IMG/VR virus record: IMGVR_UViG_3300006854_000027
Span: 1-49,458 of that record
Length of the DNA stretch: 49,458 nt
Reading direction: 5' to 3' (one strand)
From: a virus
Shown here: piece after piece, positions 5,598-24,638 of the stretch
How the letters are laid out: every line of letters starts with the position of its first letter
Position numbering within the stretch: position 1 is the first letter of the stretch
Position numbers and translations under genes: made by a program
Notes under the pieces: model-generated
Databases searched by the model: none
What the model was told of the DNA's origin: nothing
What the model saw: the letters and a program-made list of their open reading frames with translations, nothing else

Positions 5598-5822
5598 CTA
5601 TGCTGTTGGTTTCGGTTTTTCTTTCGGCTTGTTCACATGGTAGTAGGTGATCGTGAGATTGAAGGCGCCGGATAGCGTTTTGACGTTCCCGCCCTTGCCG
5701 GGATTGAGCACGAGATTGGGCGGCGCGTTGGCCGTATCGGTGACATTGCCAGAGGCCGGCGTCTTCGGTGGCTGGATGTCGCTCGTCTGAAACGGTCTGA
5801 CAATGCCTTCCAAGGTACTCAT
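5598..5822 (-). CDS. Small tail-region protein, 74 residues
   Basis: The ATG at 5822 overlaps the stop of the large tail protein upstream (ATGA), so translation is coupled. The sequence is rich in Pro, Asn, Thr and Lys, with a beta-prone middle (GAFNLTITYYHVNK) and a Lys/Pro tail. It is conserved in reading-frame position but is not recognised as a family. A small tip or fibre-attachment protein is possible. Confidence 0.6.
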   Translation of the reverse strand: MSTLEGIVRPFQTSDIQPPKTPASGNVTDTANAPPNLVLNPGKGGNVKTLSGAFNLTITYYHVNKPKEKPKPTA

Positions 5823-7792
5823 ATCGAAGTTGCCTCAAGGTCGATCTGCTTGGGGACTTTCAGCACGCTCACATTGGCCGGTTGCGGCGTGGCGAACAGA
5901 TTACCGGTCACGGCTTTCAATTCGAGATAATACGCGGTGATGGGAAACTGCACATATGTGCGGACTTCGCCCGTCGCCGGATAGCGCGCCTTGTCGGTGC
6001 CAACCAGAACAGGATCGGTCAATTCGCTCGTGTCGATATGCTCGTCGACGAGCACCTGATCCTTGGTCAGTGGATAGATCAGCCCGGTCGGCTCGGGGAT
6101 GGGCAATTCATAGGCCACGTCGCCGGAAGCGAGCGCGGTGGTTTGCCCCTCCATCACCTGCCAGCCGGGATCGACCCAGTTGGGCTCGACCCATGTCTCG
6201 GTGCCGGTCACTGCCGCCACCGTGCCGTCATGCCCGATGGCACAGCCGATGGTGCAGCCACCGAACAGCGTGCCGTCATCGCCCGAGCCGGTGAGGAAAT
6301 AGGAAATGATCTTGCCGGTTGCGACACCGCCGGGAATACGGTCGTCGGCAATGCTGGCGTTCTTGCGCAGCGTGAACAGCACGGCATTGTCGAAATTGCA
6401 TTGCCACGAAATATTGACCGCTCTCGCCCGCATGAGGATATGCGAGCGCGCCACCGATATCAGATACTGCAAGCTGAGCTGGCCGCGATCCGTTGAGAAA
6501 TACAGGTTGCGTGCGCTGTCGGCGATGGGTGGCGTGCCGTCGATATTGACGCCGACGTCCGCCCCGCTGAACGGGATTTGCTCCAAGGCTTCGTCGGGGT
6601 CGGGCAAGGTCACGATGGATTGCAGATCGGCTGTCAGCGTGAACAGCACGTTTTCCTTGCGCGTATCGCCTGCCTTGTAGTCGAGCACCAGATTGGTGTT
6701 GACCAGCCAGCCCATGACCATCGTCTGATGGTAAGCCATGTGCAGCGGGATGTTTTGCTGAGCGTCGAACTCGCCGCCACTGTTGTCGATGCCGGAATAA
6801 GGATTAGAGGTTGATCCATCCGCGTTATAGATGAGGACCGCTTCCGATGGAATGACACCGGCCTGCTGCTCCAGTCCGGAAATATACAAATGCCCGCCGC
6901 TGGGAAATTCGGTCCAACTTTGCGAGATCGACATCACGTCGCCGTTTGCGTGTTTCTTTTCCCTGTTCTCGAAATGAAAATTGAGGCTGCGCGCGGCGCT
7001 GTTCTGCACGTTGTAGACATCGACAGCCGTGCCGGTATTGACGCTCCAGCCGCCGGACAATTGCGCGCCGGTCTTCGGCCATGACGACACAATCGAGCCG
7101 CCGTTCCAGCAATCGAACGACCGTTGTCCGAAATCAATGGTGCCGGTCGCCGTCTGACCCCAGCTGACATCGCCGGTCACTTGCACCGAAGTCAAAGGTG
7201 GCTGACCAAGGTCGATGCTCACCGAATCATACGGGATCGCCGTCGGGCTGAAGACCAGCGTGCCGTCTTCACCGCTGATGATGTCGCTTATGGTCACCTG
7301 TCCGGTGAGCCGGTCGACATGCCACAGCGCCGAGTAGCCTTCCAGCACGACGTCGGGATCGCCAGTTGATCCCGCAGAGGAAAAATATGGCCGCTTGTCG
7401 GGGTCGACGAAGATCGGATCGTAATAGGGCAGCTGCTTGAGCGTTTCGGCGAGTTGAAATTTCTGTGTAATGAAGTCGAGCGGCTTGGCAATAAATTGCA
7501 GCGTCACCACTTCGGCCAGCATGTTGGTCGGCACGCCGACCAGACGGCCAAAAAACAACGGCACGATGCCGCCGGTGCCGCTGTCGTAGGAAAACCACAT
7601 CCAGACTTTGCGACCCGGTGCGAGCAGGCCGATCTTCGGGTTGCGCACGTCAAGCTCAAGCGTCGCGCTGTTGCCCTCGGTCTGCTCAAGCCGAAAGCTG
7701 ACAATATTCTCGTCGACGATCTCGTGCTGTGGTCCGAACGTGGTTTCTGTCGCGTCGACCCACGCATTGAAAAACATGACCGGCAAGGGCAT
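5819..7792 (-). CDS. Tail tip / baseplate hub-like protein, 657 residues
   Basis: This large protein begins FFNAWVDATETTF and early on has the strand pattern of tail-hub domains (IVSFRLEQTEGNSATLELDVRNP; VPLFFGRLVGVP), which resembles phage tail proteins of the gp27-like hub type. It then has long beta-rich regions. It lies two genes after the tape measure, where siphophages place the distal tail and tip proteins. No enzymatic motif was seen. The start at 7792 is followed closely by a second possible ATG. Confidence 0.7.
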   Translation of the reverse strand: MPLPVMFFNAWVDATETTFGPQHEIVDENIVSFRLEQTEGNSATLELDVRNPKIGLLAPGRKVWMWFSYDSGTGGIVPLFFGRLVGVPTNMLAEVVTLQFIAKPLDFITQKFQLAETLKQLPYYDPIFVDPDKRPYFSSAGSTGDPDVVLEGYSALWHVDRLTGQVTISDIISGEDGTLVFSPTAIPYDSVSIDLGQPPLTSVQVTGDVSWGQTATGTIDFGQRSFDCWNGGSIVSSWPKTGAQLSGGWSVNTGTAVDVYNVQNSAARSLNFHFENREKKHANGDVMSISQSWTEFPSGGHLYISGLEQQAGVIPSEAVLIYNADGSTSNPYSGIDNSGGEFDAQQNIPLHMAYHQTMVMGWLVNTNLVLDYKAGDTRKENVLFTLTADLQSIVTLPDPDEALEQIPFSGADVGVNIDGTPPIADSARNLYFSTDRGQLSLQYLISVARSHILMRARAVNISWQCNFDNAVLFTLRKNASIADDRIPGGVATGKIISYFLTGSGDDGTLFGGCTIGCAIGHDGTVAAVTGTETWVEPNWVDPGWQVMEGQTTALASGDVAYELPIPEPTGLIYPLTKDQVLVDEHIDTSELTDPVLVGTDKARYPATGEVRTYVQFPITAYYLELKAVTGNLFATPQPANVSVLKVPKQIDLEATSI

Positions 7793-11078: not shown

Positions 11079-11263
11079 TTGCGATTCAATCGGGCGCTGG
11101 CGAGCTTGAGATAGCCCGCGACCTGTCGCGGCGTCATCAGCCAGACATCGCTTGTGGAGTGGCCACAGACTCCGATGAGGCTTTCGATTCCTTCGGCAAG
11201 ACCTTGAAGCGCAGTTTTCGCGCCGGTGGCGTCTTCGCCAGATGCGTGACGAGTTCGCCCCAC
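11075..11263 (-). CDS. Tail assembly chaperone, second frame (probable -1 frameshift extension)
   Basis: This open frame overlaps the 3' part of the chaperone gene in the -1 frame and runs on to TGA at 11075, which overlaps the GTG of the next gene. Its C-terminus (DVWLMTPRQVAGYL) resembles the W-x-x-TP-R signature of short tail-assembly chaperones in alphaproteobacterial phages and gene transfer agents. There is no good start codon with a Shine-Dalgarno inside the overlap. A candidate slip site is the A-run at 11215-11218 (codons CGA AAA CTG). The coordinates give the open frame; the true fusion point is unknown. Confidence 0.6.
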   Translation of the reverse strand: MGRTRHASGEDATGAKTALQGLAEGIESLIGVCGHSTSDVWLMTPRQVAGYLKLASARLNRK

Positions 11264-11616
11264 TGCTCGACGAAAGGGCCGACACCATCCGGGATCGTCT
11301 TGTCGGCGATCTTCTGCAAAGCGGCAAGCTGCTCCGTTGCCGAGTATTGACCGGCGATCTGCTCGGCCTGCTCGTTGCCGGGATGACCGAACCCGGCGGC
11401 GATGATCGCGGCGACGGCATGTCCGGCGACTTCCATCACCGCCTTGACCGTGATCTGCCCGTCGCGTTCGAAGCGCTCGGTCAGCCGCGTCATCAGATCG
11501 GGATAGGTGGTGATCAGATAGCCGATGCCTTCCATCGAAATTCCCGGCACGTCGATCTTCTTGCCTCTCAATACGACGATATCGGGCGCGTGATTGATGG
11601 ACAGGAAGTCGCTCAT
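11137..11616 (-). CDS. Tail assembly chaperone (gpG-type), 159 residues
   Basis: The gene lies between the tail-tube and tape-measure genes, where siphophages encode their chaperone pair. It starts with ATG at 11616, overlapping the tail-tube stop by ATGA. The protein is helical with an N-terminal strand region (DIVVLRGKKIDVPGI). Chaperones of this type wrap the tape measure during tail assembly, and a small fraction is made as a longer product by frameshifting. Confidence 0.7.
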   Translation of the reverse strand: MSDFLSINHAPDIVVLRGKKIDVPGISMEGIGYLITTYPDLMTRLTERFERDGQITVKAVMEVAGHAVAAIIAAGFGHPGNEQAEQIAGQYSATEQLAALQKIADKTIPDGVGPFVEQWGELVTHLAKTPPARKLRFKVLPKESKASSESVATPQAMSG

Positions 11617-12161
11617 GCGGTCAGACCTTCATGCAGGGCACGCAGCGTGAAATGGCCGAAGCCATGCACGGCGTGAAACTGTATCTTGCCCTGTAGCGGG
11701 ATCGTATTCCAGTCGTCATTATCGCGCACAAGGAAGAACTCGGCGGTGGGCGAGAGGTTGACGTAGCCGATCCAGTCGACCTGCGGGCCTTCGAGGTTGT
11801 CGCCAGCGATGCGCAGCACGCCGTTAAAGTTGGTCTTGGTCAATTGCATGATATCCCATCCGGCGCCGCCGGTATTGTCGGTGACGGTGCCAAGGGCGAA
11901 CATGCTGATGGCAAGCTGTGTGACCTCATCGAGCGTGAATTTCACCTCGCCGGTCGCCAGCGTCACAACGGTCTTGTCGATGCGTCGCGAGCCGCCATAG
12001 GTGCGGATGTGATCCTTGGTGGTGACGTTGTTGGCGATGGAAAAGTTGACCATGTTGCCAAGATCGAACTCGCCGGAGATGGCGTCGTCGGTCCAGTAAA
12101 CCTTGCCGGTGGGGATCTGATAGTTGGTGATCGCGGGTATGGTGCCGGGACTTACGGGCAT
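11613..12161 (-). CDS. Major tail (tube) protein, 182 residues
   Basis: It has the expected size, beta-rich make-up and place (after the tail terminator, before the chaperones). Strands such as ISGEFDLGNMVNFSIANNV and ATGEVKFTLDEV fit tail-tube folds. GGAGAATC precedes the ATG at 12161. Tube proteins form stacked hexamer rings around the tape measure. Confidence 0.75.
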   Translation of the reverse strand: MPVSPGTIPAITNYQIPTGKVYWTDDAISGEFDLGNMVNFSIANNVTTKDHIRTYGGSRRIDKTVVTLATGEVKFTLDEVTQLAISMFALGTVTDNTGGAGWDIMQLTKTNFNGVLRIAGDNLEGPQVDWIGYVNLSPTAEFFLVRDNDDWNTIPLQGKIQFHAVHGFGHFTLRALHEGLTA

Positions 12162-12176
12162 TGATGATTCTCCTTC

Positions 12177-12641
12177 TCAAAGCGTGGTGGGATTGAACGG
12201 GTAGGCGATGGAGAAATGCACGGTGAGATTGACTTCCGCCGAGCGGCCTTCGGCGAGCGACGTGGTGGCGGCGACATAGCGCGCCCCGCCATTGGGGATG
12301 CGCAGCGTCGCCGCGCGTCCGCCCGCCAGCTGCTCGATCTGACTGTCGAACAGAATCGCCTTCTGCACCTTGGCCAGCCATTCGTTGGTCACCGTGCCGA
12401 CATTTTCCGGGACGTCGCCGAGCGACACGACGATGGTGGGCGACATGCTCACGATGTTGATGGCCCCGCCGGTCGCGCGCAGGTTTTCGAAGGCTTCCTC
12501 GTCGCCGTCGAACAGCACGGCGGCGGGCAGCTTGCTGTCGGCGACGCGGTCGACATTGCGCCCCGCCGTCTCGACGCCGGGGATCGTGGCGATCACGTCG
12601 GCAATGCGGGCGAGGATGGCTTCGCGTCTCGACAGGGTCAT
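12177..12641 (-). CDS. Tail terminator / minor tail protein, 154 residues
   Basis: The N-terminal helix (SRREAILARIADVIATIPGV) followed by a beta sandwich that ends in HFSIAYPFNP matches the gpU-like tail-terminator pattern. Such proteins cap the tube and join it to the head. It is placed directly before the tail-tube gene, as usual. Confidence 0.7.
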   Translation of the reverse strand: MTLSRREAILARIADVIATIPGVETAGRNVDRVADSKLPAAVLFDGDEEAFENLRATGGAINIVSMSPTIVVSLGDVPENVGTVTNEWLAKVQKAILFDSQIEQLAGGRAATLRIPNGGARYVAATTSLAEGRSAEVNLTVHFSIAYPFNPTTL

Positions 12642-12642
12642 G

Positions 12643-12981
12643 TCAGGACTCGAACAGCAGGATCAGGCGTATCTCGCCATCGAATTCGCCGCCCGGCGAT
12701 GGCTTGGGCAAATAGGATTTTATCCGCCACGTCTGCCCGTTAACCACGACCGTACCTTGCGGCAAATCCGACACGAGAATGCCGACCGACTGGAGCTCCC
12801 GCGCACGGACGTCCACGACGGGGCGGATCGTATCGATCTGGCTTCGCGGATCGGTGATCGGAAGCCCGGCAGTCTTGTCGATGACGGTGACGGCTGCGGA
12901 TTGTCCACCGGAGGATGCAACGGTGGCCGGGACCCCGAGGGTATTATAGATCGGGTCATAGTGCGCCTGCCAATCGATCAT
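12643..12981 (-). CDS. Head-tail joining protein, 112 residues
   Basis: ATG at 12981 overlaps the preceding stop (ATGA). The beta-rich sequence (YNTLGVPATV; IRPVVDVRARELQSVGILVSDL; WRIKSYLPKP) and its place before the tail terminator fit a small head-tail joining or stopper protein. Open frame upstream of 12981 belongs to the neighbour's shadow. Confidence 0.65.
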   Translation of the reverse strand: MIDWQAHYDPIYNTLGVPATVASSGGQSAAVTVIDKTAGLPITDPRSQIDTIRPVVDVRARELQSVGILVSDLPQGTVVVNGQTWRIKSYLPKPSPGGEFDGEIRLILLFES

Positions 12982-13283
12982 GGATCGGGGTTCGCCGCGT
13001 TGGCGATGATCTGCAATTTCATGTCGTCGGCACCGGAAGGATTGACCGCGCGGATCGAGGCGAAGAACGCGCCGGGTTCGCAGACCTTGGTGTCGAACTG
13101 CGCCGTCCATGTGCCATCGGTCTGTAGGTCCATGGCCAGCGGCGGGTCGACCGACGCAACGCCGTTGGCATGCACGTAATCGAGATAGAGACTCACGCTG
13201 TCGGGCGTGGTGACAACACCCGCGGCGTCGCGCGGCGTCGAGGCGAAGACCAGCAGATTTCCCCGCACGATCTTGTCGGTCAT
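12978..13283 (-). CDS. Small virion protein with immunoglobulin-like strand pattern, 101 residues
   Basis: The start at 13283 overlaps the end of the giant repeat protein (ATGA). Strand phrases (NLLVFASTPRDAAG; SVSLYLDYVHANG; WTAQFDTKVCEPGAFFASIRAV) suggest one beta-sandwich domain, similar to small tail-associated or decoration domains. It lies between the repeat protein and the head-tail joining gene. The function is unknown. Confidence 0.6.
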   Translation of the reverse strand: MTDKIVRGNLLVFASTPRDAAGVVTTPDSVSLYLDYVHANGVASVDPPLAMDLQTDGTWTAQFDTKVCEPGAFFASIRAVNPSGADDMKLQIIANAANPDP

Positions 13284-16200
13284 ATCACTTCGCACCCCAC
13301 TTCGGTTTCGATGCTGCTCGGCGTCATGACAAAACCCATGTCGCTTTGCGCGACGACGGTCGCAAGCCTGGAGGACGTGACGGCGGTGCCGATGTCGCTC
13401 AGCCCGATGCTCGTCTCGATGCGCGATACGGTGATGACCGTCTCGATGTCGCAAATCTTCGGGCGGAAGATTCGCGACACCTTGCGCAGCAGCGTCTTGA
13501 TGTCCGCCCACAGCACCGTGAGAACCTTGGAGCGGGCGACGAAGATCGTTTTTCGGTCGCTGATCTGGAAGGCGAGCGTGAGCGCGCGCACACGGCTGCG
13601 CGTCAGCGTTTTGATGTCTGTTGTGCTGAAAGCGATCAGGCGCAGCTTGGCGGTGCTTCGCGTCAGTGTCTTGACGTCTGGGGTTGCAAACGCGATCCGG
13701 TGCGCGATGCGCTGGCTGAGCGTCTTGGCGTCGGCAATGGCGATCTGGATCGTGCGCGTTGCCGACCGGCGCAGGGTCTTCACGTCGGCGGTGCTGAATA
13801 TAATTGCGGCCAGTCGCGCGCGGATGCGGGTCAGGGTCTTGACGTCCGGCGTAGAGAACGTAACCGAGCGCAGAAACGCCTTGGACAAGGCCAAGGTTTT
13901 CAGATCGGGCGTGGCGAAGCTGATCGTTCGGGTCAGCCGGTTGATCAGCATCTTGGTGTCGCCGATAAAGACCGGGATCGTACGGCGGAACGTCAATCGC
14001 GCCGTGAGCGTCTTGAGATCGGGTGTGGAGATCGCCAGCGTGCGGGCGAGCCGCCGCTGCAGCGTTTTGACGTCGGGACTTTGGATCGTAATCGAGCGCA
14101 GAAACGCCTTGAGCGCCGCGAGCGTCTTCTGATCGGCAATGGCGACCGTGACGGTGCGCCTGATCGCGCGCGCCAGTGTCTTCACGTCGAGCGTCTGCAA
14201 GCTGATGGTGCGGCGCACCGCGCGCGACAATGTTTTCACGTCGGCGGTGGCAAAGCTGATCTGACCGCGCGAGCTTGGCACCGCGAGCAGCGTCTTGATG
14301 TCGCTCAATGCGACTGCAAGCGTCTTCGGCAAGCGCCGCGTGATGGTCTTGATGTCGGCGATCTGGATCGAGATCGTGCGCGCCGCCCCACGCGCCAAAG
14401 TTTTTATGTCCGCCGTGCTGATCGTAATGGCCAGCCGCTTTTGCAGGATGCGCGTGAGCGTTTTGACGTCCGCCGTGGCGACCGTGATCGTGCGCAAGAC
14501 GGCCTTGATGATCGTCAGCGTCTTGACGTCTGGCGTGACGAACGTGATCGCATGCATCGCGCTGCGCGTCAGTGTCTTCACGTCGCTCGTGGAGATCGTG
14601 ATCGTTCGTAGCAGGCGGCGCAGTGCGCTCAGCGTCTTGATATCCGCAAGGCTGATGGTGAACGTCTTGATCGCGCTGCGTGTCAACGTCTTGACGTCGA
14701 CAATTGAAACCGTGACGGCACGGTTGATGGCCTTGATCGTTGCCAGCGTTTTCAGATCGGGAGTCGAGAACGTCAGCGTCAAACGATGCGCGGCGGCCCG
14801 CGTCAGGATCTTGAGATCGAAGATCGAGACATTGATGGTGCGCCCCATCGAGCGGCTCAATGTCTTTACGTCAGGCGAGATAACGGAAATGAGCCGCGGC
14901 TGACGGCGCAGCAAAGTCTTAACGTCGGCGGTGGCAAACGTAATGGTTTGCGGGAAAGTGACTTGGCCCGAGATCAGTTGCGTGGCCAGCGTCTTCACGT
15001 CGGGCGAAGCCAGTAGAACGGCTCGCGGCAATCGGCGTGCCAGCGTCTTGATATCCGCTGTCGTGATCGTGATCGTCATGCGCGCCGACAGCTTTGTCGT
15101 CAGCGTCTTGATATCCGGGGTGGCGACAGTGACGATCCGTCGCATCGCGCGCAGCAACGTCTTCACATCGGCGGTGGAGATGGTGATCGTCTTCGACAGC
15201 GACTTGAGCCGCGTCAGCGTCTTCACGTCGGCAGTCGAGAACGTGATGGCCTTGGACAGCGCCTTGAGCCGCGTCACGCTCTTGATATCGGCGATGCCCA
15301 CGCCTTGCGCACGTAATGCGATGGTGGCCAAGGCCGTGCCGAAGACATTGCTCGGCTGCAACACAGTAATAAGCCTGCTGAAGCTGATCCTCCGGGTCAG
15401 CGTTTTGACGTCGGCGGTTGAAAACGTAATGGCCTTTGCCTGAGCCTTGATGCGCGTCAGCGTCTTGATATCGGCTAGGCCCGGTCCGGTCTGCCGCCGA
15501 TAGAGAATATTGAAGGCCGAGCCTGTGATATTGCTCGGCGAAGACATGATCTTGGTCGTGGCGATCCGATTGACGAGTGACTCGCCCTGCGTCTGTGAAA
15601 GCGTATTTGTTCTGGTGAACTTGAACTGCGTGAAGACGATCACGCCTTGCTGCGCCGCGCCGCCCGAGCCGTTGGACCGTCCGCCGCCGCCCGAACCGCC
15701 GCCCCATTGACCGCCCGCGCCGCCCGTGCTTGGCCCGGCATTGCCACCACCGCCACCGCCGCCCGAGTAGTTGGGTGCTACCGCATTGCCACCGGCACCG
15801 CCCGGTGATCCTGCCACACCGGCTGCACCGCCTGAGCCTGCGTCGCCCGAGCCGCCTGCCGTCGACGTCGTGGTCGAGGTCGGATTGCCCGCACCGTGCG
15901 GGCCGCCCGCGCCGCCGCCACCACCGCCCAATGCGTTGGACGCACCCGCGCTGTTGGAAAAGCCGCCGCGCTGGACGACCGCGCCGGTTGCCGGGTTGGT
16001 GTAGAAAGCCGAAGTGAGTGCCGAGGCAACGCCGGTTGCAGACGTGGCTGAAGCGAGCGCAGGTCCGCCTTTGGTGCCGACCTTGTTCGTCCCGGTCGTG
16101 GGAAACGCCGTGTCGTTGACCCACGTATCGCCGCCCGCCGCGCCATCCGAAGCGCCGCCGATCCCGACTTGGCAGGTCGGCGATGCCGTTCCGGCATAGG

Positions 16201-16642
16201 CGACGATCTTGGCATAACCGCCGCCCGGTCCGCCCGCGCCCGATGTCGAGGTCGAGGCCCCGTGCGCGCCGCGAGCTCCACCGCCGATGACCTCGACCGT
16301 GTTGGTCGTATCGCTGATGAAGTCTGAGCGAAGGTTGACGGTCTGGTTCGAGCCAGGACTTGCGGTGACGACGGTCTGCGCCATCACCAAGGTGCCGACG
16401 ACGTCCTCGCCGCGCCGGAATGCTAGATACCAGTCGTTGTTATGGCCCCACGGCTTTTGCGAGCGGACAAGGACAACGCCGATGTCGTGCGCCGGCTCAA
16501 ACGGTGCCCAATGCACCGGCTCGGCATAGCGCCGCCGTCCTTGCCAGTTCGGATTGCCGCCCCACCAGGGCAGCGGGTTATACGTGGATGCCGCCGAGCG
16601 GATAGTGACTGCCGGCAAAGATCGGGCTGACTGCCACGTCAT
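13280..16642 (-). CDS. Giant adhesin-like protein with glycine-rich domain and about 34 DxKTL repeats, 1120 residues
   Basis: Three regions can be seen. Residues 1-115 are a mixed N-terminal domain. About 118-325 are strongly Gly-rich (runs such as GGGGGGAGG), like the Gly-rich tip domains of phage adhesins. About 380-1070 is a tandem array of about 34 clear units built on a hydrophobic strand plus [AP]-D-[VI]-K-T-L-[TA]-R, 17-28 residues each, then three decayed units at the C-terminus (CDIETV, SDIGTA, SDMGFV). A regular beta structure, such as a solenoid or fibrous stack, is likely. The repeat units differ in DNA sequence, so the array is old and kept by selection. It overlaps the preceding gene by 65 bases. 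Confidence 0.8.
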   Translation of the reverse strand: MTWQSARSLPAVTIRSAASTYNPLPWWGGNPNWQGRRRYAEPVHWAPFEPAHDIGVVLVRSQKPWGHNNDWYLAFRRGEDVVGTLVMAQTVVTASPGSNQTVNLRSDFISDTTNTVEVIGGGARGAHGASTSTSGAGGPGGGYAKIVAYAGTASPTCQVGIGGASDGAAGGDTWVNDTAFPTTGTNKVGTKGGPALASATSATGVASALTSAFYTNPATGAVVQRGGFSNSAGASNALGGGGGGAGGPHGAGNPTSTTTSTAGGSGDAGSGGAAGVAGSPGGAGGNAVAPNYSGGGGGGGNAGPSTGGAGGQWGGGSGGGGRSNGSGGAAQQGVIVFTQFKFTRTNTLSQTQGESLVNRIATTKIMSSPSNITGSAFNILYRRQTGPGLADIKTLTRIKAQAKAITFSTADVKTLTRRISFSRLITVLQPSNVFGTALATIALRAQGVGIADIKSVTRLKALSKAITFSTADVKTLTRLKSLSKTITISTADVKTLLRAMRRIVTVATPDIKTLTTKLSARMTITITTADIKTLARRLPRAVLLASPDVKTLATQLISGQVTFPQTITFATADVKTLLRRQPRLISVISPDVKTLSRSMGRTINVSIFDLKILTRAAAHRLTLTFSTPDLKTLATIKAINRAVTVSIVDVKTLTRSAIKTFTISLADIKTLSALRRLLRTITISTSDVKTLTRSAMHAITFVTPDVKTLTIIKAVLRTITVATADVKTLTRILQKRLAITISTADIKTLARGAARTISIQIADIKTITRRLPKTLAVALSDIKTLLAVPSSRGQISFATADVKTLSRAVRRTISLQTLDVKTLARAIRRTVTVAIADQKTLAALKAFLRSITIQSPDVKTLQRRLARTLAISTPDLKTLTARLTFRRTIPVFIGDTKMLINRLTRTISFATPDLKTLALSKAFLRSVTFSTPDVKTLTRIRARLAAIIFSTADVKTLRRSATRTIQIAIADAKTLSQRIAHRIAFATPDVKTLTRSTAKLRLIAFSTTDIKTLTRSRVRALTLAFQISDRKTIFVARSKVLTVLWADIKTLLRKVSRIFRPKICDIETVITVSRIETSIGLSDIGTAVTSSRLATVVAQSDMGFVMTPSSIETEVGCEVI
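13430..15500 (-). repeat. In-frame tandem repeat array coding for DxKTL units
   Basis: The plus strand shows periodic GTCTTGAC, GTCTTCAC or GTTTTGAC words, the complement of the D-V-K-T-L codons, every 51-84 bases. Phase is kept in codons and unit length varies. It is a protein-level repeat and not a CRISPR or satellite array. Confidence 0.85.
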
Positions 16643-16979
16643 TGATGATCCCGCCGATGTTGTTTTTGATCACATAGGCCACGCCCGCGCCGCCGTCCCG
16701 GTTGAGACAAAATGCCAGCGAGTTGTCATTGAGAATAACGTTCTCGATATGGTCGAGCGCGAGGATGCCGAACCAACCGGCGAGGTAAGTATGCGTCACC
16801 GTGCCGTCGGTATTGATCACATCCTGCGATGGCCGCCAAACCTGCACGTTGGGCAGGAATTGATGCAGATACCAATCCTTGACGACCGTGCCGCCATCCG
16901 ATCCGAAATATTGCCGCAGACGATAGGCATCTTGTTTGGCCTCGGCCTCATTGGCCCATTTGGCAAAGTAGTCGATCAT
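16578..16979 (-). CDS. Virion-module protein, 133 residues
   Basis: The start at 16979 (MIDYFAKWANEAEAKQDAY) overlaps the previous gene by ATGA. An N-terminal helix is followed by aromatic- and beta-rich sequence (VWRPSQDVI; TYLAGWFGILALD). It is not recognised as a family. It sits between a lectin-like protein and the repeat adhesin, and ends inside the first codons of the latter, so the two may be made together and work as a pair. Confidence 0.6.
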   Translation of the reverse strand: MIDYFAKWANEAEAKQDAYRLRQYFGSDGGTVVKDWYLHQFLPNVQVWRPSQDVINTDGTVTHTYLAGWFGILALDHIENVILNDNSLAFCLNRDGGAGVAYVIKNNIGGIINDVAVSPIFAGSHYPLGGIHV

Positions 16980-17971
16980 GGCGCGGTCAATGCCTGCAGC
17001 GTGGCGTCGGCGAGTTTGCTGTTCCAAAGCGTCAACCGCCTAACATATCCAAAATTAGTGACAGAGCTGGCTCCTGATTGGGTCAGCAAGACAACATTCG
17101 GCATTATGCCAGGAGCACTGCCGGTTATAACGGTCCCGCCGGTTAGCACTGCCGAACCATTGCTCGCATCCTGCGCAATGCCTAATTTTGCTCCGGTATA
17201 TACCGTACCGGACCCAGCAACAGCCTTGGCTAAAGGATTCCAGACAATCGCATGATCAAAATCAGTATCCGCGTTATTGATTGCGTAACTGCTGCCGGAA
17301 CCGGGCCAAAAAACTCTAAAACCTAATCCAGATCCGCCAGAAATGTCTTTGAAGTCTATGATTGCAGACATGGGCTGCGCGTTAAATATCGTATTAGCAT
17401 TGCCTATACACAGAACAACGTCCTGCGCCCTTGTCGCCGATGTGCTTGTGGTGACTATAGGCGAACTTGAAAAACTGCCGGCCTCGACATTGACATTTTG
17501 AAAAGCACCACCCGCACCGGAGACAGTGCAGGTCAAACTCGTTGTTGATGCAGTAAAAGTAACATCGGTCCCTTGCGTAGCGGTACCAGTACCTGCACCT
17601 GACAGAACTACAGAGGCAGTCCCATAGACACTAACGGTATATGCTGTTCCGTTAGCAACGGTGATAATCTGTGTTACTGGGGCCTGAGAGTTAAGAAATA
17701 GATTCGTGCGCGCATCTTCGACCAAAATGCCCAGATCGGTAATGCGCAAGATGTTCGAACCAAAAGAAATCCAATTTCCACTACTATCCTTCGCATAGCC
17801 GGTCGAGGCACGGGTGCAGGACAGGAAATCCGTCGCCGCCCTCGGGTTGGCGGTCGATGAGTCGTAATAGCGCCCGCTGTCGAAATCGAGATCGACCGAT
17901 GCGCCGGGCAGCCACCACCCCGGCATGGGAATTTCAAGCGCGACTTGCCGACCGGTGACGAAGACGCCCAT
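16976..17971 (-). CDS. Lectin-like virion protein with low-GC middle, 331 residues
   Basis: The N-terminal part contains LSCTRASTGYAKDSSGNW and GILVEDARTNLFL, a pattern seen in many phage structural proteins that go on to a concanavalin-like domain. The rest is Ser/Thr/Gly-rich and beta-type. The DNA from about 17040 to 17780 is clearly richer in A/T than the flanks, which suggests a module acquired from another source. Start and stop overlap both neighbours (TGATG, ATGA). It probably acts in surface binding. Confidence 0.65.
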   Translation of the reverse strand: MGVFVTGRQVALEIPMPGWWLPGASVDLDFDSGRYYDSSTANPRAATDFLSCTRASTGYAKDSSGNWISFGSNILRITDLGILVEDARTNLFLNSQAPVTQIITVANGTAYTVSVYGTASVVLSGAGTGTATQGTDVTFTASTTSLTCTVSGAGGAFQNVNVEAGSFSSSPIVTTSTSATRAQDVVLCIGNANTIFNAQPMSAIIDFKDISGGSGLGFRVFWPGSGSSYAINNADTDFDHAIVWNPLAKAVAGSGTVYTGAKLGIAQDASNGSAVLTGGTVITGSAPGIMPNVVLLTQSGASSVTNFGYVRRLTLWNSKLADATLQALTAP

Positions 17972-18627
17972 CAGTTTTTACGATACGCCGCCCAGAACGT
18001 GCTGTCGCGCAGCGTGCCGGGAGCGATGTCGTCGCCTTCCAGTTCGCCGCGCTCGATCAAGATGAAGCCGCTGTCGAGAATGAGCCTATGGATGTCGATG
18101 GCATCATCGGTCCATTGCCCGTCGTCGACCGGCACCACGCGGCGCACGTTGTTGACGATGAAAAGCGGAGCATCGCCATCAAGCGCCCGGTAAATGTTGG
18201 TGATATCATCGGACGGCTTGAGACAATGCTGCAGCGTCCAGATCGCAATGGCGGCGGTGGCATAGCCCGACGGAAGCACGCTCAACATGGCGGGGTGCAA
18301 GGCGAAGAACCTGTCGCTGTCGACGCACGAGGCCGCCAGCGCGCGCATGTTCGGGCTGATGTCGACGCCGATGACGTTGCAGCCATGCTTCTCGATCAGC
18401 GGCTTTGACAACCGGCCGATGCCGCAGCCGTAATCCAGCACCGTGCCGTTTTTGGCAATGTGCTTCTCGATCAGTCTCATGAGATACGGCGCTTCGGTTT
18501 TCCAGCGATGCACCGAGGTCATGCCCGCTTCGGGCGTGAGGATGATGCGCACCGCTTCGTCGACCGTCTCCACCGAAGTGAAGACGGACGGATTGTAGTG
18601 CACCTGCTTGAGCGCCGTGACTTTCAT
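17971..18627 (-). CDS. SAM-dependent methyltransferase, 218 residues
   Basis: Motif I is clear (VLDYGCGIGRLS, residues 63-74), followed by NVIGVDISPNM for the acidic loop, then a fold typical of class I methyltransferases of the Methyltransf_11/25 type. The substrate is not evident. Its position among glycosyltransferase-like genes suggests a sugar or surface-polymer target rather than DNA. Its stop overlaps the next gene's start (TGATG). Confidence 0.8.
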   Translation of the reverse strand: MKVTALKQVHYNPSVFTSVETVDEAVRIILTPEAGMTSVHRWKTEAPYLMRLIEKHIAKNGTVLDYGCGIGRLSKPLIEKHGCNVIGVDISPNMRALAASCVDSDRFFALHPAMLSVLPSGYATAAIAIWTLQHCLKPSDDITNIYRALDGDAPLFIVNNVRRVVPVDDGQWTDDAIDIHRLILDSGFILIERGELEGDDIAPGTLRDSTFWAAYRKN

Positions 18628-18631
18628 GGAC

Positions 18632-19312
18632 TCAGGTCAGAGTATCTTTCCATGTGAACAAAATCGAGTCGTTGTTGCTTAACGCAATGCCCGCGAAATC
18701 GGCATGCGCAAACAACGATCCGCCTTTTGCCGTGGTGTTGGCATAGGTCGCGGTCTGTCCACCCAGCGAGGCATTGGTATTGGCGAGGCCATCCGCGCCT
18801 GATGTTGCCGTGGCACCCACCGCATGCGCGGTCGATGTCGAGCCGAGCTGCCCGCGCACCACCGTCAATGTCGCGGTGCCTTGGCCGCCGGTCACGAGCT
18901 CCACCTCGTTTTCCACCTGAATGTAGAAGTTGCCGGATGCCGGTCCGATGGTAGCCGACAACGTGATCGTCGTGGCCGCCGCCGCCTGTGATGATGTGGC
19001 AATGACCGACGTCGATGCCGCCGTCGTGGTGTCGAACAGGCCCGCCTCTGTGATGGTTTTAGCGTTGGTCGCGGTGATCGTGCCGGTCACCTGATAGGTG
19101 TCGGCGAGTTGCGTGGTCAGCACGAGCGATGATGTCCCCGCCACGCGCGCCTCGGTCTGCGGCCCGAACAGGGCCACGTCGGGGTTGGCCGATCCGGTCG
19201 TCGCGCCGGAACCCCAGCCGATATTCTTCGGTTCGGTTGGTGATCCTGCGGCTTTCACGAACGCCCATATTAATGAGCGCCCGGCATAGGTGGCCGTTGC
19301 AGCGTTAGCCAT
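18632..19312 (-). CDS. Phage tail-fibre-like structural protein, 226 residues
   Basis: It is Ala/Thr/Gly-rich and beta-type (TYQVTGTITATNAKTITEAGLFD; NFYIQVENEVEL). The segment TITEAGLFDTTT resembles a motif in phage tail-fibre and tail-collar-like proteins. It is set between two modifying enzymes, so it may be one of their targets; that is inference. It overlaps the glycosyltransferase gene by 8 bases. Confidence 0.6.
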   Translation of the reverse strand: MANAATATYAGRSLIWAFVKAAGSPTEPKNIGWGSGATTGSANPDVALFGPQTEARVAGTSSLVLTTQLADTYQVTGTITATNAKTITEAGLFDTTTAASTSVIATSSQAAAATTITLSATIGPASGNFYIQVENEVELVTGGQGTATLTVVRGQLGSTSTAHAVGATATSGADGLANTNASLGGQTATYANTTAKGGSLFAHADFAGIALSNNDSILFTWKDTLT

Positions 19313-20681
19313 GGGCAGACTCCGTTTGTGAGGGTTTAAGCCGCGCGTCGACGCGGTCGATCAGATCGTCACGCACCCGCGAGAGGACCGAAGTCCAATC
19401 GTCGGTCTTGTCTTGTCGATAGAGTTTGAGCGATGGATGCCACGGGCTGTCGACGCGCTCTTTCATCCACAGCCAATACGGATTTTCGCACAGCACCACC
19501 CATGCCTCGACGCCGAGCGCGCCCGCCAGATGCGCCATCGATGTGCAGCACGTCACCAGCAAATCCATTTGCAGGATGGCGGTGGCGGCGACCGTCAGCC
19601 CGCGCTCCTGCAATTGCGGGCCAAGATCGCAGACGAGATCTTGCGCGCAGAGTCGTTCGATATCGGCTTGCGCCGGTCCGACTTGCAATGAGTAAAGCCA
19701 CACGTTCGGGTGCTCGGCCAAAGTGAGCAGCTTTTCCAAGGGCAGCATGCGCTCGGCGTTGCGCTCCTGCTTGGGGTTGCCCGACCAGACGAGGCCGACT
19801 TTGTGACCGTTCGGCCCGAGCGGCGCGGGGATGTCCGCCTTGCCGATGCGCAGCTGCACGTCGACGCGCTTGCGGATCAGCCCGGGATCGGGCGGGATCG
19901 TGTCCAGTTTCACCTTGGCGAAATGCGGCAGACTGCCGGTGACGATGCTGAAGTCGCAGCGCGGGATCGGCGTGCCTTCGGGAACGAACTCGATCAGACC
20001 GGCGAGCTTGAACTCCCACAACAGCACCATGACCTCGTGCGCGCAGCACAGATGCACGGTGCCCGCGCCAACTTGCTCCTTGAGCCACGGCAGGAAGCGC
20101 GAGAACAGGATGGTGTCGCCGATGCCCTGCTCGATGCAGCAGAACACGTCCTTGCCTTCCAGTGATGTGCGTCCATCCCAATAGGGCGCCGGGAAAATCG
20201 GATAATTGTTCTTGCCTTCATTGCGCGAAAACTGGATGCGCGATTCGTATTCGGCAAATCCGCGCTCGTAATCGCCCAACCCCAGCCGCATCATCGAGCG
20301 GCACCAGCGCACGTTATGATATTCGCTGTCGGCGGTCAGCGCCTTTTCAAACCACGTCTCGGCCCCGGCATGATCGCCGGTGCTGTCGAGGATCAGCGCC
20401 TTGTTGTGGAAGGCTTTGGTAAAGTCGGGATCGATGTCGAGCGCGCGATCCACGCACGCCATGGCCTCATCGTAGTGCCGCGCGTTCCATAAAAACGTCG
20501 CGAGGTTCGACCAGAGCTCCTTGGATTGCGGCTCGACGGCGATGGCGCGCTTCGCTTCGATGATCGCCGTGACAAGATGGCGTTGCTTGCCGCGTGCCAG
20601 TGCGATGTCGTTCAGTTCGTTGACCGCCGCATGCACCGGTCGCACGTTGCGGCGCTTGGTGGGCAGCTTGACGACGCTCAT
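19305..20681 (-). CDS. TPR-glycosyltransferase fusion, 458 residues
   Basis: Residues about 30-160 form tetratricopeptide-type helical repeats (LWSNLATFLWNARHYDEAM; AFHNKALILDSTGDHAGAE). Residues about 175-450 look like a GT-B glycosyltransferase of the GT9/GT41-like kind: CIEQGIGDTILFSRF, KVGLVWSGNPKQERN and CTSMAHLAGALGVEAWVVL match the nucleotide-sugar and acceptor regions. TPR-GT fusions act on proteins or surface glycans. No signal peptide, so it is cytosolic. The donor sugar is unknown. Confidence 0.8.
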   Translation of the reverse strand: MSVVKLPTKRRNVRPVHAAVNELNDIALARGKQRHLVTAIIEAKRAIAVEPQSKELWSNLATFLWNARHYDEAMACVDRALDIDPDFTKAFHNKALILDSTGDHAGAETWFEKALTADSEYHNVRWCRSMMRLGLGDYERGFAEYESRIQFSRNEGKNNYPIFPAPYWDGRTSLEGKDVFCCIEQGIGDTILFSRFLPWLKEQVGAGTVHLCCAHEVMVLLWEFKLAGLIEFVPEGTPIPRCDFSIVTGSLPHFAKVKLDTIPPDPGLIRKRVDVQLRIGKADIPAPLGPNGHKVGLVWSGNPKQERNAERMLPLEKLLTLAEHPNVWLYSLQVGPAQADIERLCAQDLVCDLGPQLQERGLTVAATAILQMDLLVTCCTSMAHLAGALGVEAWVVLCENPYWLWMKERVDSPWHPSLKLYRQDKTDDWTSVLSRVRDDLIDRVDARLKPSQTESAHG

Positions 20682-21248: not shown

Positions 21249-21956
21249 TCAGACCCTCTTGAAGGCGAACGCGCCGATATCCTCGCGCCCCGCTTTGATT
21301 TCCATGTCGCTTTCGATGATCAGTTCGAAGCCCAAGTCCGCCATGACGTTGATCAGACCCCGCCTTGTGAAATACCAGAAATGCTCGTCCTTGCGATAGT
21401 GCTTGGAGCGCAGCACATGATCGGCGTCGCGGAAGATCGGCAGCGATAGAAAGAGCCAGTCGGAGACCTTGTCGAGCACGGCGGGAAAATCGTCGATGTG
21501 CTCAAGCACGTCCCACAGACTCATCGCGCGGATCGGCTCGTTGTGTATCGGGACATTGAGCCACAACATGCGCGCCTTGAGCCACGCAATGCCCGCGGCG
21601 TTGATGTCATACCCGTAGGTACGCCGCCCGAATTGATTGCGCCGCTCGATAAACGCGCCCGAGCCGATGCCGTAGTCGAGCAGATCGAGACCCCACACTT
21701 TGTCGACGAAAGCAACGCGCGCCGCCATGAGGCGTTTGCCGATAGGCTCGTCCGCCTGTCGCGCAAAGCGGTCGAAATAGGCTTGATCGTAGGGCGACCG
21801 GCTTACGCTGACGGGGAAATAGCCGATGCCAATTTCGGGATACCAGCGTAGGCATTCGTCCTCGATGCCGAGTCGCCACGGGCGGCCAGGAAGGCGGCGA
21901 AAGAGTCCATTAAGTTTGGAATCTCCTTGTTGCAATCGTGGCGCATGCTCGTGCAT
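21249..21956 (-). CDS. SAM-dependent methyltransferase (start uncertain)
   Basis: The core is clear: LLDYGIGSGAF as motif I, then YGYDINAAGI and a later MSLWDVLEHIDD, as in class I methyltransferases related to the Methyltransf_23 group. The family signature RWYPEIGIGYFPVS begins near 21865. The frame stays open upstream across the end of the glycosyltransferase gene, so the true start is unclear: ATG at 21956 is one option. A good Shine-Dalgarno (AAGGAG, about 21924-21929) precedes an ATG in the other frame, hinting at a frameshift or an assembly indel near 21870. Confidence 0.65.
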   Translation of the reverse strand: MHEHAPRLQQGDSKLNGLFRRLPGRPWRLGIEDECLRWYPEIGIGYFPVSVSRSPYDQAYFDRFARQADEPIGKRLMAARVAFVDKVWGLDLLDYGIGSGAFIERRNQFGRRTYGYDINAAGIAWLKARMLWLNVPIHNEPIRAMSLWDVLEHIDDFPAVLDKVSDWLFLSLPIFRDADHVLRSKHYRKDEHFWYFTRRGLINVMADLGFELIIESDMEIKAGREDIGAFAFKRV

Positions 21957-22756
21957 CCGCAAAACTCCCTCGGCGTGGCAAACGTGATGCGCGAGCAATC
22001 GAGACGCTTGTCCAGTATGCGCTCGGGCGAATTATGCCCGCCCTGCCCGCCGAGGATCACGAAGCAATCGCGCTTGAGCGCGGTCGAGGCGGGTACGATG
22101 AAACCGACCGGGCCGATGACGAGATCGGACGCGCCCAGCAATGCGAGCATGTCCATGACGCGCAGTTCGCCCCGGAGAAATTCGCTGTCGCCGCGCGGCG
22201 GCCGGCTGACAAACCATTCCGCGCCGTCGAGCACGTCGGCAACGATCACGATGTGATGCGTCGGGCGTAGCTGTTCGACGATCTGCGCGATGTATTCCGG
22301 GCGCGGGTTGCGCGCGCTGTTGAGCCATTCCCGACGCTCGGTGACCGGTCTGACAAAGGCGATGGGCTTGTCGGTGACAACCGGGGGCGGCGGCAGTGGC
22401 GGCAGATCGAAGTCCGCCGGGTCCAGTTGCAGCTGAAAGCTCTGCTCCATGCCCCAGATGATCGATTTGTGATTCTGGAACGCGACGACATAGGTGTTGC
22501 GGATCGTGCGCGCGGGCCGGGGCGGACGTTGCTCCCATTTGACTTTCGCGCGCGCGACGTTCTTGGTTTGCGTTCGCAATTTGCCGTTGACCGCGGGCAC
22601 GACGAAATGCAGGCTGGGGATGTCCGCGTACAGTTCAGGCCACGACGTCTCCAGCCATATGTCCGCCGTGCGCGCGAGCTGCTTCACAAACGCCCGCTGA
22701 TAGATGTTGTCCCCCAAGCCCTGCATCCCCAAGACACTGATCGGCGGCTTCGACAT
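21803..22756 (-). CDS. Glycosyltransferase-like protein (GT9-like), 317 residues
   Basis: ATG at 22756 begins MSKPPISVLGMQGLGDNIYQRAF, the G-x-G-D-x-x-x motif seen at the start of heptosyltransferase-like GT-B folds. Later phrases (HHIVIVADVLDGAEWF; LVIGPVGFIVPASTALKRDCFVILGG split over two strands) fit the C-terminal nucleotide-sugar domain. A Cys/His cluster (CGCTSMRHDC) lies near the end. It overlaps its neighbours by 122 and more than 150 bases, which is unusual in this tightly but neatly packed operon. Confidence 0.65.
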   Translation of the reverse strand: MSKPPISVLGMQGLGDNIYQRAFVKQLARTADIWLETSWPELYADIPSLHFVVPAVNGKLRTQTKNVARAKVKWEQRPPRPARTIRNTYVVAFQNHKSIIWGMEQSFQLQLDPADFDLPPLPPPPVVTDKPIAFVRPVTERREWLNSARNPRPEYIAQIVEQLRPTHHIVIVADVLDGAEWFVSRPPRGDSEFLRGELRVMDMLALLGASDLVIGPVGFIVPASTALKRDCFVILGGQGGHNSPERILDKRLDCSRITFATPREFCGCTSMRHDCNKEIPNLMDSFAAFLAARGDSASRTNAYAGIPKLASAISPSA

Positions 22757-23348
22757 GATCGCGCAATTCGACGATGGGCCAGAGGGCAAGCGCTGAACCG
22801 GGGGAGGCATTAACGCACGCGATTCCCTTCGCGCGCAAGCCCTCCGCGATGGGCGGCAGATCCGATTGCTGGCGGCGATAGGCGTCCGCCATGACGACCC
22901 ACGGATGCGGCCGATGATGGTGCGTGCGCCCGTCGTCGGCTTTTTTCTGATCAATGCCGAGCAGCACGATTTTGGCGACGGCAAAATGATACGCCAGATT
23001 GATCGCCGCCGTCAGCGTGGTGTTTTTCACCATCAGCGTTTCGCGATCTTCGCTCAGCCCGCGCAGCGTCGAGCGTCGCATCGTGACGAGATTGGGTGCG
23101 CCGCTCGCCGACTGTGACGTTGCGATAATCGTGCCTTTGAACTTCAGCGCGCCAATGCGGATGTGCTCGCACCACCAGCGCATGTCGGAGAAAACGCAGA
23201 ACTGCGCCTCGGGAAAGGCGATGTAGCTGGAATTGATGACGATGATCTTCTTGCCCTTGAGCAAGTGGGTTGGTTGGTTTAGCACCGATGGCCCGCCGCC
23301 GATGATGTAGCACGTCTCGCCTTTCCAGATCGGCTCGGCGCGAAACAT
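22635..23348 (-). CDS. DUF115 / MptE-like Rossmann protein, 237 residues
   Basis: The N-terminal CYIIGGGPSVL with KKIIVINSSYIAFP and FCVFSDMRWW resembles the Rossmann region of 6-hydroxymethylpterin pyrophosphokinase MptE-like and motility-glycosylation (DUF115) proteins. It is coupled to the connector gene by TGATG. The last 40 residues run over the start of the next gene and do not look like a natural domain end, so the biological C-terminus may be different. It may act in sugar transfer along with its neighbours. Confidence 0.6.
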   Translation of the reverse strand: MFRAEPIWKGETCYIIGGGPSVLNQPTHLLKGKKIIVINSSYIAFPEAQFCVFSDMRWWCEHIRIGALKFKGTIIATSQSASGAPNLVTMRRSTLRGLSEDRETLMVKNTTLTAAINLAYHFAVAKIVLLGIDQKKADDGRTHHHRPHPWVVMADAYRRQQSDLPPIAEGLRAKGIACVNASPGSALALWPIVELRDHVEAADQCLGDAGLGGQHLSAGVCEAARAHGGHMAGDVVA

Positions 23349-23971
23349 CAGACCCACTTCGCCTTGTACCCGTCGAGCATGTCATTGACGTTGGGCGGCA
23401 ACGCGGTGGCACCCGCCCCTGTCGCGGTGCCGAAGCGATAATCGTTGAAGCTGACCGTCGTGCCCTCGTGCGTGGTCGAGCGGATGGTCGGGTCGCGGTT
23501 CCCGGCAAATCGGGAAAAGCGGATCGTCTCGACGCAGGCTTGCGTCAGGAGCGGCGGCGCATCGTCGGGCAAGTTATAACCGCCCAGATAATCGACGACG
23601 ATCTCGCCGCGCCAGCGCCAGCATTTCATCCACAACAGCCCGCTGTCGTAGTCCAGTTCGAAAAGCTCCGGCTCCGCTGGCGCGCCGCAGACGGTGATCG
23701 AGAACAGTTGCTGCACCGGAAAATGCCGCAGATAGAGCGCCTCGACCGGCTGTCCGGCATGCACGCGAAAATTCTCGGTGACCTCCAGCGCGGCGAAATC
23801 CCGGTTGCAGAAATCGGCAATGAGCTTCGACGTGAACGTGATGCGCTGCGCCATGATGGCGTCGTCGGCGGTATTGCCGGTAATGCCCAGCATGAGATTG
23901 ACGTCCTGCACGGTCGCGAGATCGTAGACGGGAGCGGTCGGCCCATTCACCGTGTAGAGCGACTTACGCAT
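23348..23971 (-). CDS. Head-tail connector protein, 207 residues
   Basis: The N-terminal helices (YDLATVQDVNLMLGIT; DDAIMAQRITFTSKLIADFCN) and the later ILPP-like segment (APPLLTQACVETIRF) match the gp6-like phage connector pattern. These adaptors form a ring under the portal. Placement near the portal supports the call. It overlaps the collagen-like gene by 8 bases. Confidence 0.7.
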   Translation of the reverse strand: MRKSLYTVNGPTAPVYDLATVQDVNLMLGITGNTADDAIMAQRITFTSKLIADFCNRDFAALEVTENFRVHAGQPVEALYLRHFPVQQLFSITVCGAPAEPELFELDYDSGLLWMKCWRWRGEIVVDYLGGYNLPDDAPPLLTQACVETIRFSRFAGNRDPTIRSTTHEGTTVSFNDYRFGTATGAGATALPPNVNDMLDGYKAKWV

Positions 23972-24638
23972 ACGCCGAGTCCTTGCCGGGAAGTCCCTGC
24001 GGCCCGCGCACGCCGTCCTTGCCGTCTTTGCCGTCGCGCCCTTTCATCACGAACAATTGCCAGTCTTTCGATTCACCGGGGCGGCCCTGCGGGTTGTCGA
24101 CGATGGCATACCAGCCGCTGCCGCCCGACGTCACGCTGTCGTCGAGCGCATATGTCTCGTTGTGCTTCCACGGCCCGCGATGTCGCCCGCGCGAGGGGCC
24201 CGCGCCGTCCTTGCCGTTTTCGCCGCGTTCGCCCTTCTCGCCCTGCGGCCCCATTGCGCCAGGGTGGCCGTCGACGCCGTCCTTGCCGTTGATGCCGTCT
24301 TTGCCGTCCTTGCCGGGGATGCCGGTTTCGCCGCGCAGGCCCGTTTCGCCGCGCTCGCCCTTCTCGCCGCGCTCGCCGGTCAGCCCCTGAGGCCCCGGAT
24401 CGCCTTTCGCACCCACAGCGCCAGCATCGCCGGGATCGCCCTTGTCGCCTTTTTCTCCCTTTTCGCCGCGCGCCCCGGCGAGGCCGGGATCGCCCTTGTC
24501 GCCTTTTTGCGGTTGGCGGCTTTCCAGTAAAAGCAGGCGCGTTTCGAGAAACTCGATTCGCCCGAATAATTTGCCCTGCTGCTCATGAAAAATATCCGCC
24601 AATTCCTTGGCGATCGCCTGCTCAAGCTGCTGCTGCAC
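23964..24638 (-). CDS. Collagen-like virion protein, 224 residues
   Basis: GTG at 24638 follows AAGGAG. Residues 1-40 form an amphipathic helix or coiled coil. From about residue 44 to 150, and again near the C-terminus, the sequence is made of Gly-x-y triplets with many GEKGDKG, GERGE and GKDGKDG units, which form collagen-type triple helices. Between the two blocks lies a small Trp/Tyr-bearing module (WKHNETYALDDSV; WYAIVDN) like a carbohydrate-binding module. A trimeric fibre is likely. Its place between portal and connector suggests a head or neck fibre. Confidence 0.8.
   Translation of the reverse strand: MQQQLEQAIAKELADIFHEQQGKLFGRIEFLETRLLLLESRQPQKGDKGDPGLAGARGEKGEKGDKGDPGDAGAVGAKGDPGPQGLTGERGEKGERGETGLRGETGIPGKDGKDGINGKDGVDGHPGAMGPQGEKGERGENGKDGAGPSRGRHRGPWKHNETYALDDSVTSGGSGWYAIVDNPQGRPGESKDWQLFVMKGRDGKDGKDGVRGPQGLPGKDSAYA

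Follow-up and report, generated by a model that had tools for sequence, protein, structure and literature searches.

A phage repeat protein with an 18- or 20-residue spacing rule, a likely virion fibre shaft of uncultured phages

We analysed a virus record of 49,458 bases from IMG/VR (IMGVR_UViG_3300006854_000027, here called the window at its full length) and, within it, the gene P0001, which an initial annotation made from the sequence alone had described as an adhesin-like protein with about 34 DxKTL repeats. The open reading frame of 1120 residues reported at that time is intact, on the minus strand, at exactly 13280-16642. P0001 was found to belong to an undescribed repeat family that occurs in virion-type fibre proteins of uncultured phages. 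Its units are spaced almost only 18 or 20 residues apart, its relatives carry different numbers of such units, and its gene lies in an appendage cassette set among the head-neck genes. The gene context, together with a gene fusion in one relative, points to a virion fibre, for which the shaft is the likely role of P0001; such a fibre would presumably act as an adhesin, as it was first labelled. Contigs of relatives are referred to below by their handles (L003 and so on).

The protein comprises an N-terminal region, a glycine-rich domain, a linker, the repeat array and a C-terminal tail, which by eye consists of shorter, diverged repeats. The array spans 661 residues, in line with the nearly 700 first estimated, and Thr and Ser make up 180 of the 739 residues (24%) of array and tail. 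Identity with the L003 homologue is 81% over the N-terminal 343 residues and 48% over the whole pairwise alignment. The true start of P0001 may lie as many as 23 residues further in, since its initial 64 bases are shared with the upstream gene and the apparent start of the L003 homologue corresponds to residue 24. No signal peptide was seen by eye at the N-terminus. Pfam Gly_rich_2 (PF21722) did not match P0001 at E 5, and the L020 homologue scored 20.5 bits, under the cut-off of 24.3.

A regular expression, D-x-K-[TSI]-[LVIM], found 33 cores between residues 391 and 1047, whereas 2000 shuffles of the protein gave at most 2 (mean 0.1). The chain of units added one further core, D-T-K-M-L, for a total of 34 D-x-K units among 35 units, which agrees with the repeat number first given. 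The core-to-core steps were 18 (14 times), 20 (15 times), and 25, 38 and 41 (once each), and the two longest steps are pairs of units. The unit lengths of 17-28 residues proposed initially were therefore replaced by lengths of almost only 18 or 20, plus a single 25-residue landmark unit. By the same chain, L003 has 33 units, L015 49, L022 31, L017 62, L018 40 and L020 32; over all units the chain favours steps of 18 and 20 and was seeded with D-x-K units.

The spacing was also examined in a held-out test, in which, for each protein in turn, a core profile made from six of the seven proteins and free of any spacing rule was run on the seventh, although the member units of the profiles had been picked by the chain. 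Among the 227 steps of at most 30 residues (longer steps were left out), 20 occurred 145 times, 18 occurred 70 times and 25 occurred 8 times, the other four being 21, 21, 22 and 24; thus 215 of 227 were 18 or 20, and none was 19. Shuffled proteins gave a mean of fewer than one peak each. The 25-residue unit is present once per protein, or twice in L017, and carries an I-[STP]-G motif in 6 of the 7 proteins, the unit of L020 being different. At least 93% of units have hydrophobic residues at positions -10, -8 and 0; 91-92% have A, G, P or S at -5, and 83-84% have Q, E, D or N at -4. A unit may be summarised as I-x-[VI]-[SA]-x-[AGP]-[QED]-[LV]-[V/K]-T-L-x-R followed by a connecting stretch in two lengths; the gain or loss of exactly two residues would preserve the in/out alternation of a beta-strand.

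The signature of the wider family is [E/Q]-x-V-T-L, and the D-x-K core, which holds for 34 of the 35 units in the window, is a local form of it. In five relatives, positions -4 and -2 are mostly E or Q, and V, while D-x-K units account for 14 of the 33 units of L003. Because D-x-K dominates the window and [E/Q]-x-V the five relatives, the window array is a purified version of the broader repeat and not the family type. Of 282 units, 48 carry both D and K and none carries just one of the two, but the units are kin by descent, so the Fisher value for this coupling is no true probability, and the chain that gave them had been seeded with D-x-K units. The D-x-K units of L003 tend to adjoin (21 like neighbours against a random mean of 15.9, P 0.045). 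In the window, charge-paired D-x-K units would have taken the place of [QED]-x-V units, and the D/K coupling may reflect an ion pair replacing a neutral pair.

At the DNA level the units have diverged while the motif was retained, as first noted. The 24 exact D[VI]KTL cores of P0001 are encoded by 17 different 15-mers, and unit pairs of like length share on average 52% of nucleotides and 42% of amino acids. An origin of the units as recent tandem duplications was rejected for most of them. Signs of recent copying were seen only in the units near residues 395, 456 and 476, two pairs of which share 80-83% of nucleotides. Selection, rather than recent copying, has probably kept the core, except around residues 395-495. 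The gain and loss of units that had been read from variable unit lengths fits the unit counts of the relatives, but the length variation itself is mostly alternation between 18 and 20.

A search with the repeat protein returned two contigs: L003 and one that is identical over residues 1-287, where it ends inside the repeat gene; the latter was left out of the scan with the repeat profile (A9). A search with the conserved 226-residue neighbour returned 14 loci (11 in an earlier search). Ten of the 14 contigs were matched by A9 with E values no higher than 2.6e-14, although L016 and L017 encode nearly the same protein and the ten are therefore not all independent; L028, from a separate search, is nearly the same as L015. 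The L055 contig gave a weak match (E 3.6e-4), and the L049 and L053 contigs gave none; these two stop 1.7 kb past the neighbour gene or within it. The fourteenth is the unscanned contig that is identical to the window. Relatives hold 31-62 units, which bears out the presence of the protein in related phages with varying unit number. On the L056 contig (113,838 bases), two open frames of 1306 and 1582 residues contain diverged repeats. At the place of the repeat gene, L055 encodes (11167-13566) an 800-residue protein with Laminin_G_3 and a Gp77 fibre-tail adaptor domain.

In the other sequence sets searched, the repeats were not found. No isolated phage was matched by tblastn of the P0001, L003, L017, L051 and L052 proteins, a weak negative with the low-complexity filter on. 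Plasmids, searched with P0001, L003 and L052 under the same filter, gave one match (42 bits, E 0.6), which was taken to be chance. Among bacteria, none of 398 Pseudomonadota genomes and none of 397 genomes from the order of genome G343 matched the A9 profile, within the limits of this sampling; as a control, the profile found the repeats in 8 of 11 records known or expected to carry them. Patterns from the 226-residue neighbour gave no tblastn-confirmed locus in genome contigs. A DNA pattern for the landmark unit gave five loci in genome contigs, and the repeat was absent from the two genomes checked, those of L033 and L035. A pattern for the D-x-K core found 7 viral stretches, none with the repeat protein. 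In the openly licensed literature, mostly at the level of titles and abstracts, no description of this repeat was found.

The initial annotation had recognised no named repeat family, and profile searches found no family describing the repeats in Pfam, PHROG, NCBIfam or the PDB. The best PHROG matches of P0001 were weak and all of unknown function (33982, E 0.0018; 20855; 18738). PlyCB (PF20821) matched P0001 with 32.8 bits, over the gathering score of 30.5, in the single stretch 655-696. This identity was rejected as chance in low-complexity sequence, since the match was found at one place in a 35-unit array and in none of six relatives; PF20821 was also not among the 25 families listed for 41 segments. 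Leucine-rich repeats have the same hydrophobic spacing, but they were also rejected: the single match of a PDB profile search up to E 10, a protein aligned through its Leu-rich repeats, had an E of 0.91.

The surroundings of the repeat gene were compared with those of relatives (Table 1). The closest isolated phages by terminase are Labrenzia phage V1 (52.6%) and Agrobacterium phage Rivra (47.4%). In both of them the adaptor and stopper genes touch, whereas in the window they are 10.4 kb apart; the 10-kb region between them is therefore an appendage cassette set among head-neck genes. Read along the minus strand, the genes ahead of the cassette encode the terminase, a protease-capsid fusion, the portal, a collagen-like protein and the adaptor. 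Within it follow an MptE-like gene (a weak match, below cut-off), two genes at 21249-22801 that are transferase- and methyltransferase-like by eye only, the TPR gene, the 226-residue gene, a methyltransferase gene, the PHROG 5939 gene, the 133-residue gene, the repeat gene and the 101-residue gene. The stopper, a tail-completion-like gene, the major tail protein and the tape measure come after it. The arrangement is the same in L014 and L022; in L015, L017 and L018 the order of the neck genes may differ. A gene of 112-128 residues lies at the place of the 101-residue gene in L015, L017, L018, L020 and L022. Among the 10 loci compared, all 9 that carry the 226-residue gene have the TPR gene upstream of it. 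The stopper is 40-51% identical where it was found (L022, L014), versus 77-93% for the 226-residue protein. The latter may serve as a cassette marker, possibly moving between phages.

Table 1. Features of the repeat protein and of its cassette in the window
Feature	Position	Strand	Remarks
Repeat-protein gene P0001	13280..16642	-	1120 codons; start uncertain by at most 23 codons
N-terminal region, residues 1-87	16382..16642	-
Glycine-rich domain, residues 88-342	15617..16381	-
Repeat array, residues 391-1051	13490..15472	-	35 units, nearly all of 18 or 20 residues; D-x-K in 34
25-residue landmark unit, residues 553-577	14912..14986	-	ISGxxx[YF]xxTI motif, or close to it in relatives
C-terminal tail, residues 1052-1120	13283..13489	-	69 residues; shorter, diverged repeats (by eye)
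Head-tail stopper (head closure Hc1)	12643..12981	-	PF05354 over cut-off; lower cassette border
Small gene, 101 residues	12978..13283	-	Directly downstream of repeat gene
133-residue gene	16578..16979	-	Upstream of repeat gene; L022 homologue 54%
Tail/spike-like gene	16976..17971	-	PHROG 5939 'tail protein', E 3e-15; two genes upstream of repeat gene
Methyltransferase of cassette	17971..18627	-
226-residue conserved cassette protein	18632..19312	-	77-93% identical in seven relatives
TPR protein	19305..20681	-	TPR part alone matches known families/structures; glycosyltransferase-like C-terminal part by eye
Head-tail adaptor	23348..23971	-	PHROG 442, E 1.4e-17; upper cassette border

Several other genes of the window were also noted. 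The 658-residue product of the gene at 26228-28204 is a protease-capsid fusion, with matches to prohead protease (Peptidase_S78) as well as to major capsid profiles. Between the portal and adaptor genes, 23964-24638 encodes a collagen-like GxxGxx protein of 224 residues, with a 46% identical homologue in L014. Transferase-, methyltransferase- and TPR-type genes lie within the structural operon at 21249-23357 and 17971-20681, which suggests modification of the virion or of the host surface. An amidase-type endolysin (PHROG 435) is encoded at 1445-2518.

In L052, one open frame of 1318 residues joins a Gly-rich start, the 'phage head spike fiber domain' NF048003 (residues 385-591), PHROG 5939 (353-743) and the repeats (742-1254). 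NF048003 scored 77.7 bits in this protein, over the cut-off of 36. The repeat proteins scanned alone with NCBIfam were those of P0001 and L052; P0001 matched no family at E 0.01 and hence does not reach the NF048003 cut-off. A search of whole records found the domain over cut-off in 2 of 18. In L022 it occurs at 124 bits in a separate gene, the N-terminus of whose product is 61% identical to that of the window gene at 16976-17971, while eight other proteins in the same scan had no match. The L052 fusion links the repeats to a spike or fibre protein of the virion, and not by itself to the head.

For the fold, AlphaFold2 (AF2) was run on units of two proteins. Eight 20-residue units of L017, with 23 alignment rows, gave an all-beta model with a mean predicted local distance difference test score (pLDDT) of 83.8 and a predicted template modelling score (pTM) of 0.80, in which each of units 2-8 contributes a single strand 10-17 residues long. 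VIA-align placed right-handed parallel beta-helices at the top (3-4 Å), and left-handed ones at about 11 Å, many of them lower down in a list that does not exclude families outside it. The closest was 3t9g, a pectate lyase (Z 13.0, root-mean-square deviation 3.4 over 158 of 160 residues), although Z values up to about 13 may reflect only an arrangement common for repeats. The best viral model in Foldseek was an uncharacterised protein labelled as from an iridovirus (E 1.4e-3, TM 0.78). The beta-solenoid suggested initially thus agrees with the model of L017, but not with that of the window, as described below, and for P0001 the predicted fold is plausible.

Taken together, we think it somewhat probable that P0001 is a structural virion protein of the virion fibre, with a long beta-structured shaft of about 35 units, encoded within an exchangeable cassette. 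The central part of the protein (about 60%) would form the shaft and be carried with the Gly-rich domain and the short C-terminal repeats, most likely as a parallel beta-solenoid or another fibrous beta shaft. The shaft would hold binding domains off the particle; these could be the Gly-rich domain of P0001 itself or the spike-like product of the neighbouring gene. From a site on the head or neck, or on the tail, it could provide a first, multivalent attachment to a cell-surface polysaccharide or other host structure. Computation has established the repeat, its spacing rule, the D/K coupling, the relatives, the position of the cassette and the L052 fusion; particle presence, site, receptor and the fold of P0001 itself are presumed.

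A number of results weigh against this reading. NF048003 is unspecific, as it was also found in 5 of 14 control genomes, 3 of them with scores over the cut-off, so that its name is no proof of a head spike. The window's own PHROG 5939 gene has a weak partial match to it of 17.2 bits, under the cut-off. A separate tail-tip module seems to be present (5819-7792 and below), which bears on placement at head, neck or tail. AF2 gave a poor model for five window units with 41 alignment rows (pLDDT 47.8, pTM 0.32), for which Foldseek returned a single meaningless match, and none of the solved structures matched the L017 model in Foldseek with an E value of 0.001 or less. AF2 is biased toward solenoids: it has been reported to build confident false ones from perfect or near-perfect repeats, while for four natural families with diverged repeats the methods concurred (Pratt et al. 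2025, PMC11795689). The units here are 28-42% alike, nearer the diverged case, which lessens but does not remove this worry. The -4..+6 segment of the 18-residue units has an amphipathic moment of 0.51 at 100 degrees (0.14 for the 20-residue units), and this helix-like value also fits a helical turn. No helix appears in the AF2 models; a helical reading is kept alongside the beta one.

A possible, if somewhat unlikely, alternative is that the same kind of protein is a tail fibre, at the tip or side, and not a head or neck fibre, the gene position being uninformative on site. The 'tail' label of PHROG 5939 and a distant homologue of the 226-residue protein annotated as 'tail collar fiber protein' are in keeping with this, whereas the position of the cassette between head-tail adaptor and stopper, and the tail-tip genes that the window seems to own after the tape-measure gene, argue for a different site. 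The strands could also be shared among chains, in a trimeric beta-spiral or triple-stranded beta-helix instead of a single-chain solenoid. The failure of monomer AF2 on the window units is in keeping with this, and the small residue at position -5, at the turn between two hydrophobic pairs, recalls viral fibre shafts; we consider this rather unlikely in view of the confident single-chain solenoid for the L017 units.

Two other explanations move the function away from the shaft. The Thr/Ser-rich array might be a glycosylation scaffold, modified by the TPR protein and the sugar-transfer-like genes, with the glycans doing the work. Its Thr/Ser content, the constant place of the TPR gene upstream of the 226-residue gene, and a resemblance of the TPR part to that of O-GlcNAc transferases would suit such a scaffold. 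Only the TPR was matched, however, with no transferase domain in Pfam, NCBIfam or PDB searches, and the enzymes could act on anything, making this improbable. That P0001 is not a virion protein but a late product exposed on, or released by, the infected cell is very improbable: its gene does lie near methyltransferase and transferase-like genes, but it belongs to a structural operon, has no signal peptide visible by eye, and is fused to a spike-fibre domain in L052.

The virion fibre that we favour could be taken further, to an undescribed class of fibre shafts: a very long solenoid-like rod with quantised 18/20-residue rungs, one 25-residue landmark rung and a paired switch between neutral [E/Q]-x-V and ion-paired D-x-K rungs. 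Genes resembling sugar and methyl transferases would accompany it in a swappable cassette, by which the neck region of one phage lineage becomes an attachment organ. This proposal as a whole is speculative, and we regard it as unlikely. Long phage fibres often escape annotation when their repeats match no model. A simple spacing rule that can be written as a profile gives a handle on them, as A9 finds the repeats in diverse uncultured phages, including a contig of 113.8 kb. Whether the beta-solenoid, which AF2 favours for repeats, is right for a natural family could be tested against three clean constraints, namely the 18/20 spacing, the 25-residue unit and the coupled D/K switch. If the shaft stands on the head or neck, it would add to the few known head-borne attachment devices.

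Three known systems offer comparisons. The likeness to right-handed parallel beta-helix proteins (3t9g), among which are phage tailspikes, is that of the predicted fold of the L017 units; no sequence kinship was found, and the repeats have strict short units with no enzyme domain found. RcGTA head spikes, each with a single flexible fibre on a pentameric base, bind the capsule (PMC7296036, PMC10218006). Going by its name, NF048003 would model the RcGTA spike fibre, Rcc01080; in L052 a single protein contains both this domain and the repeats and, like the upstream gene of the window, matches PHROG 5939, and the window's closest terminases include those of phages of Alphaproteobacteria. In contrast, Rcc01080 has 325 residues, and P0001 has neither an NF048003 match nor, by eye, the repeated Leu-Gly N-terminal anchor. 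The candidate head filament of phiCbK, gp76, is long and Gly-rich, with a lectin-like domain and tandem duplications, and is encoded near head genes (PMC3556154). It is a single protein of about 2,799 residues with 21% Gly (593 of 2,800 letters including the stop), and the A9 profile had no match in the phiCbK genome (JX100813, 215,710 bases). The P0001 cassette also has Gly-rich, spike-like and repeat parts. The RcGTA spikes and the candidate filament gp76 both resemble, in the way they work, the fibre proposed here.

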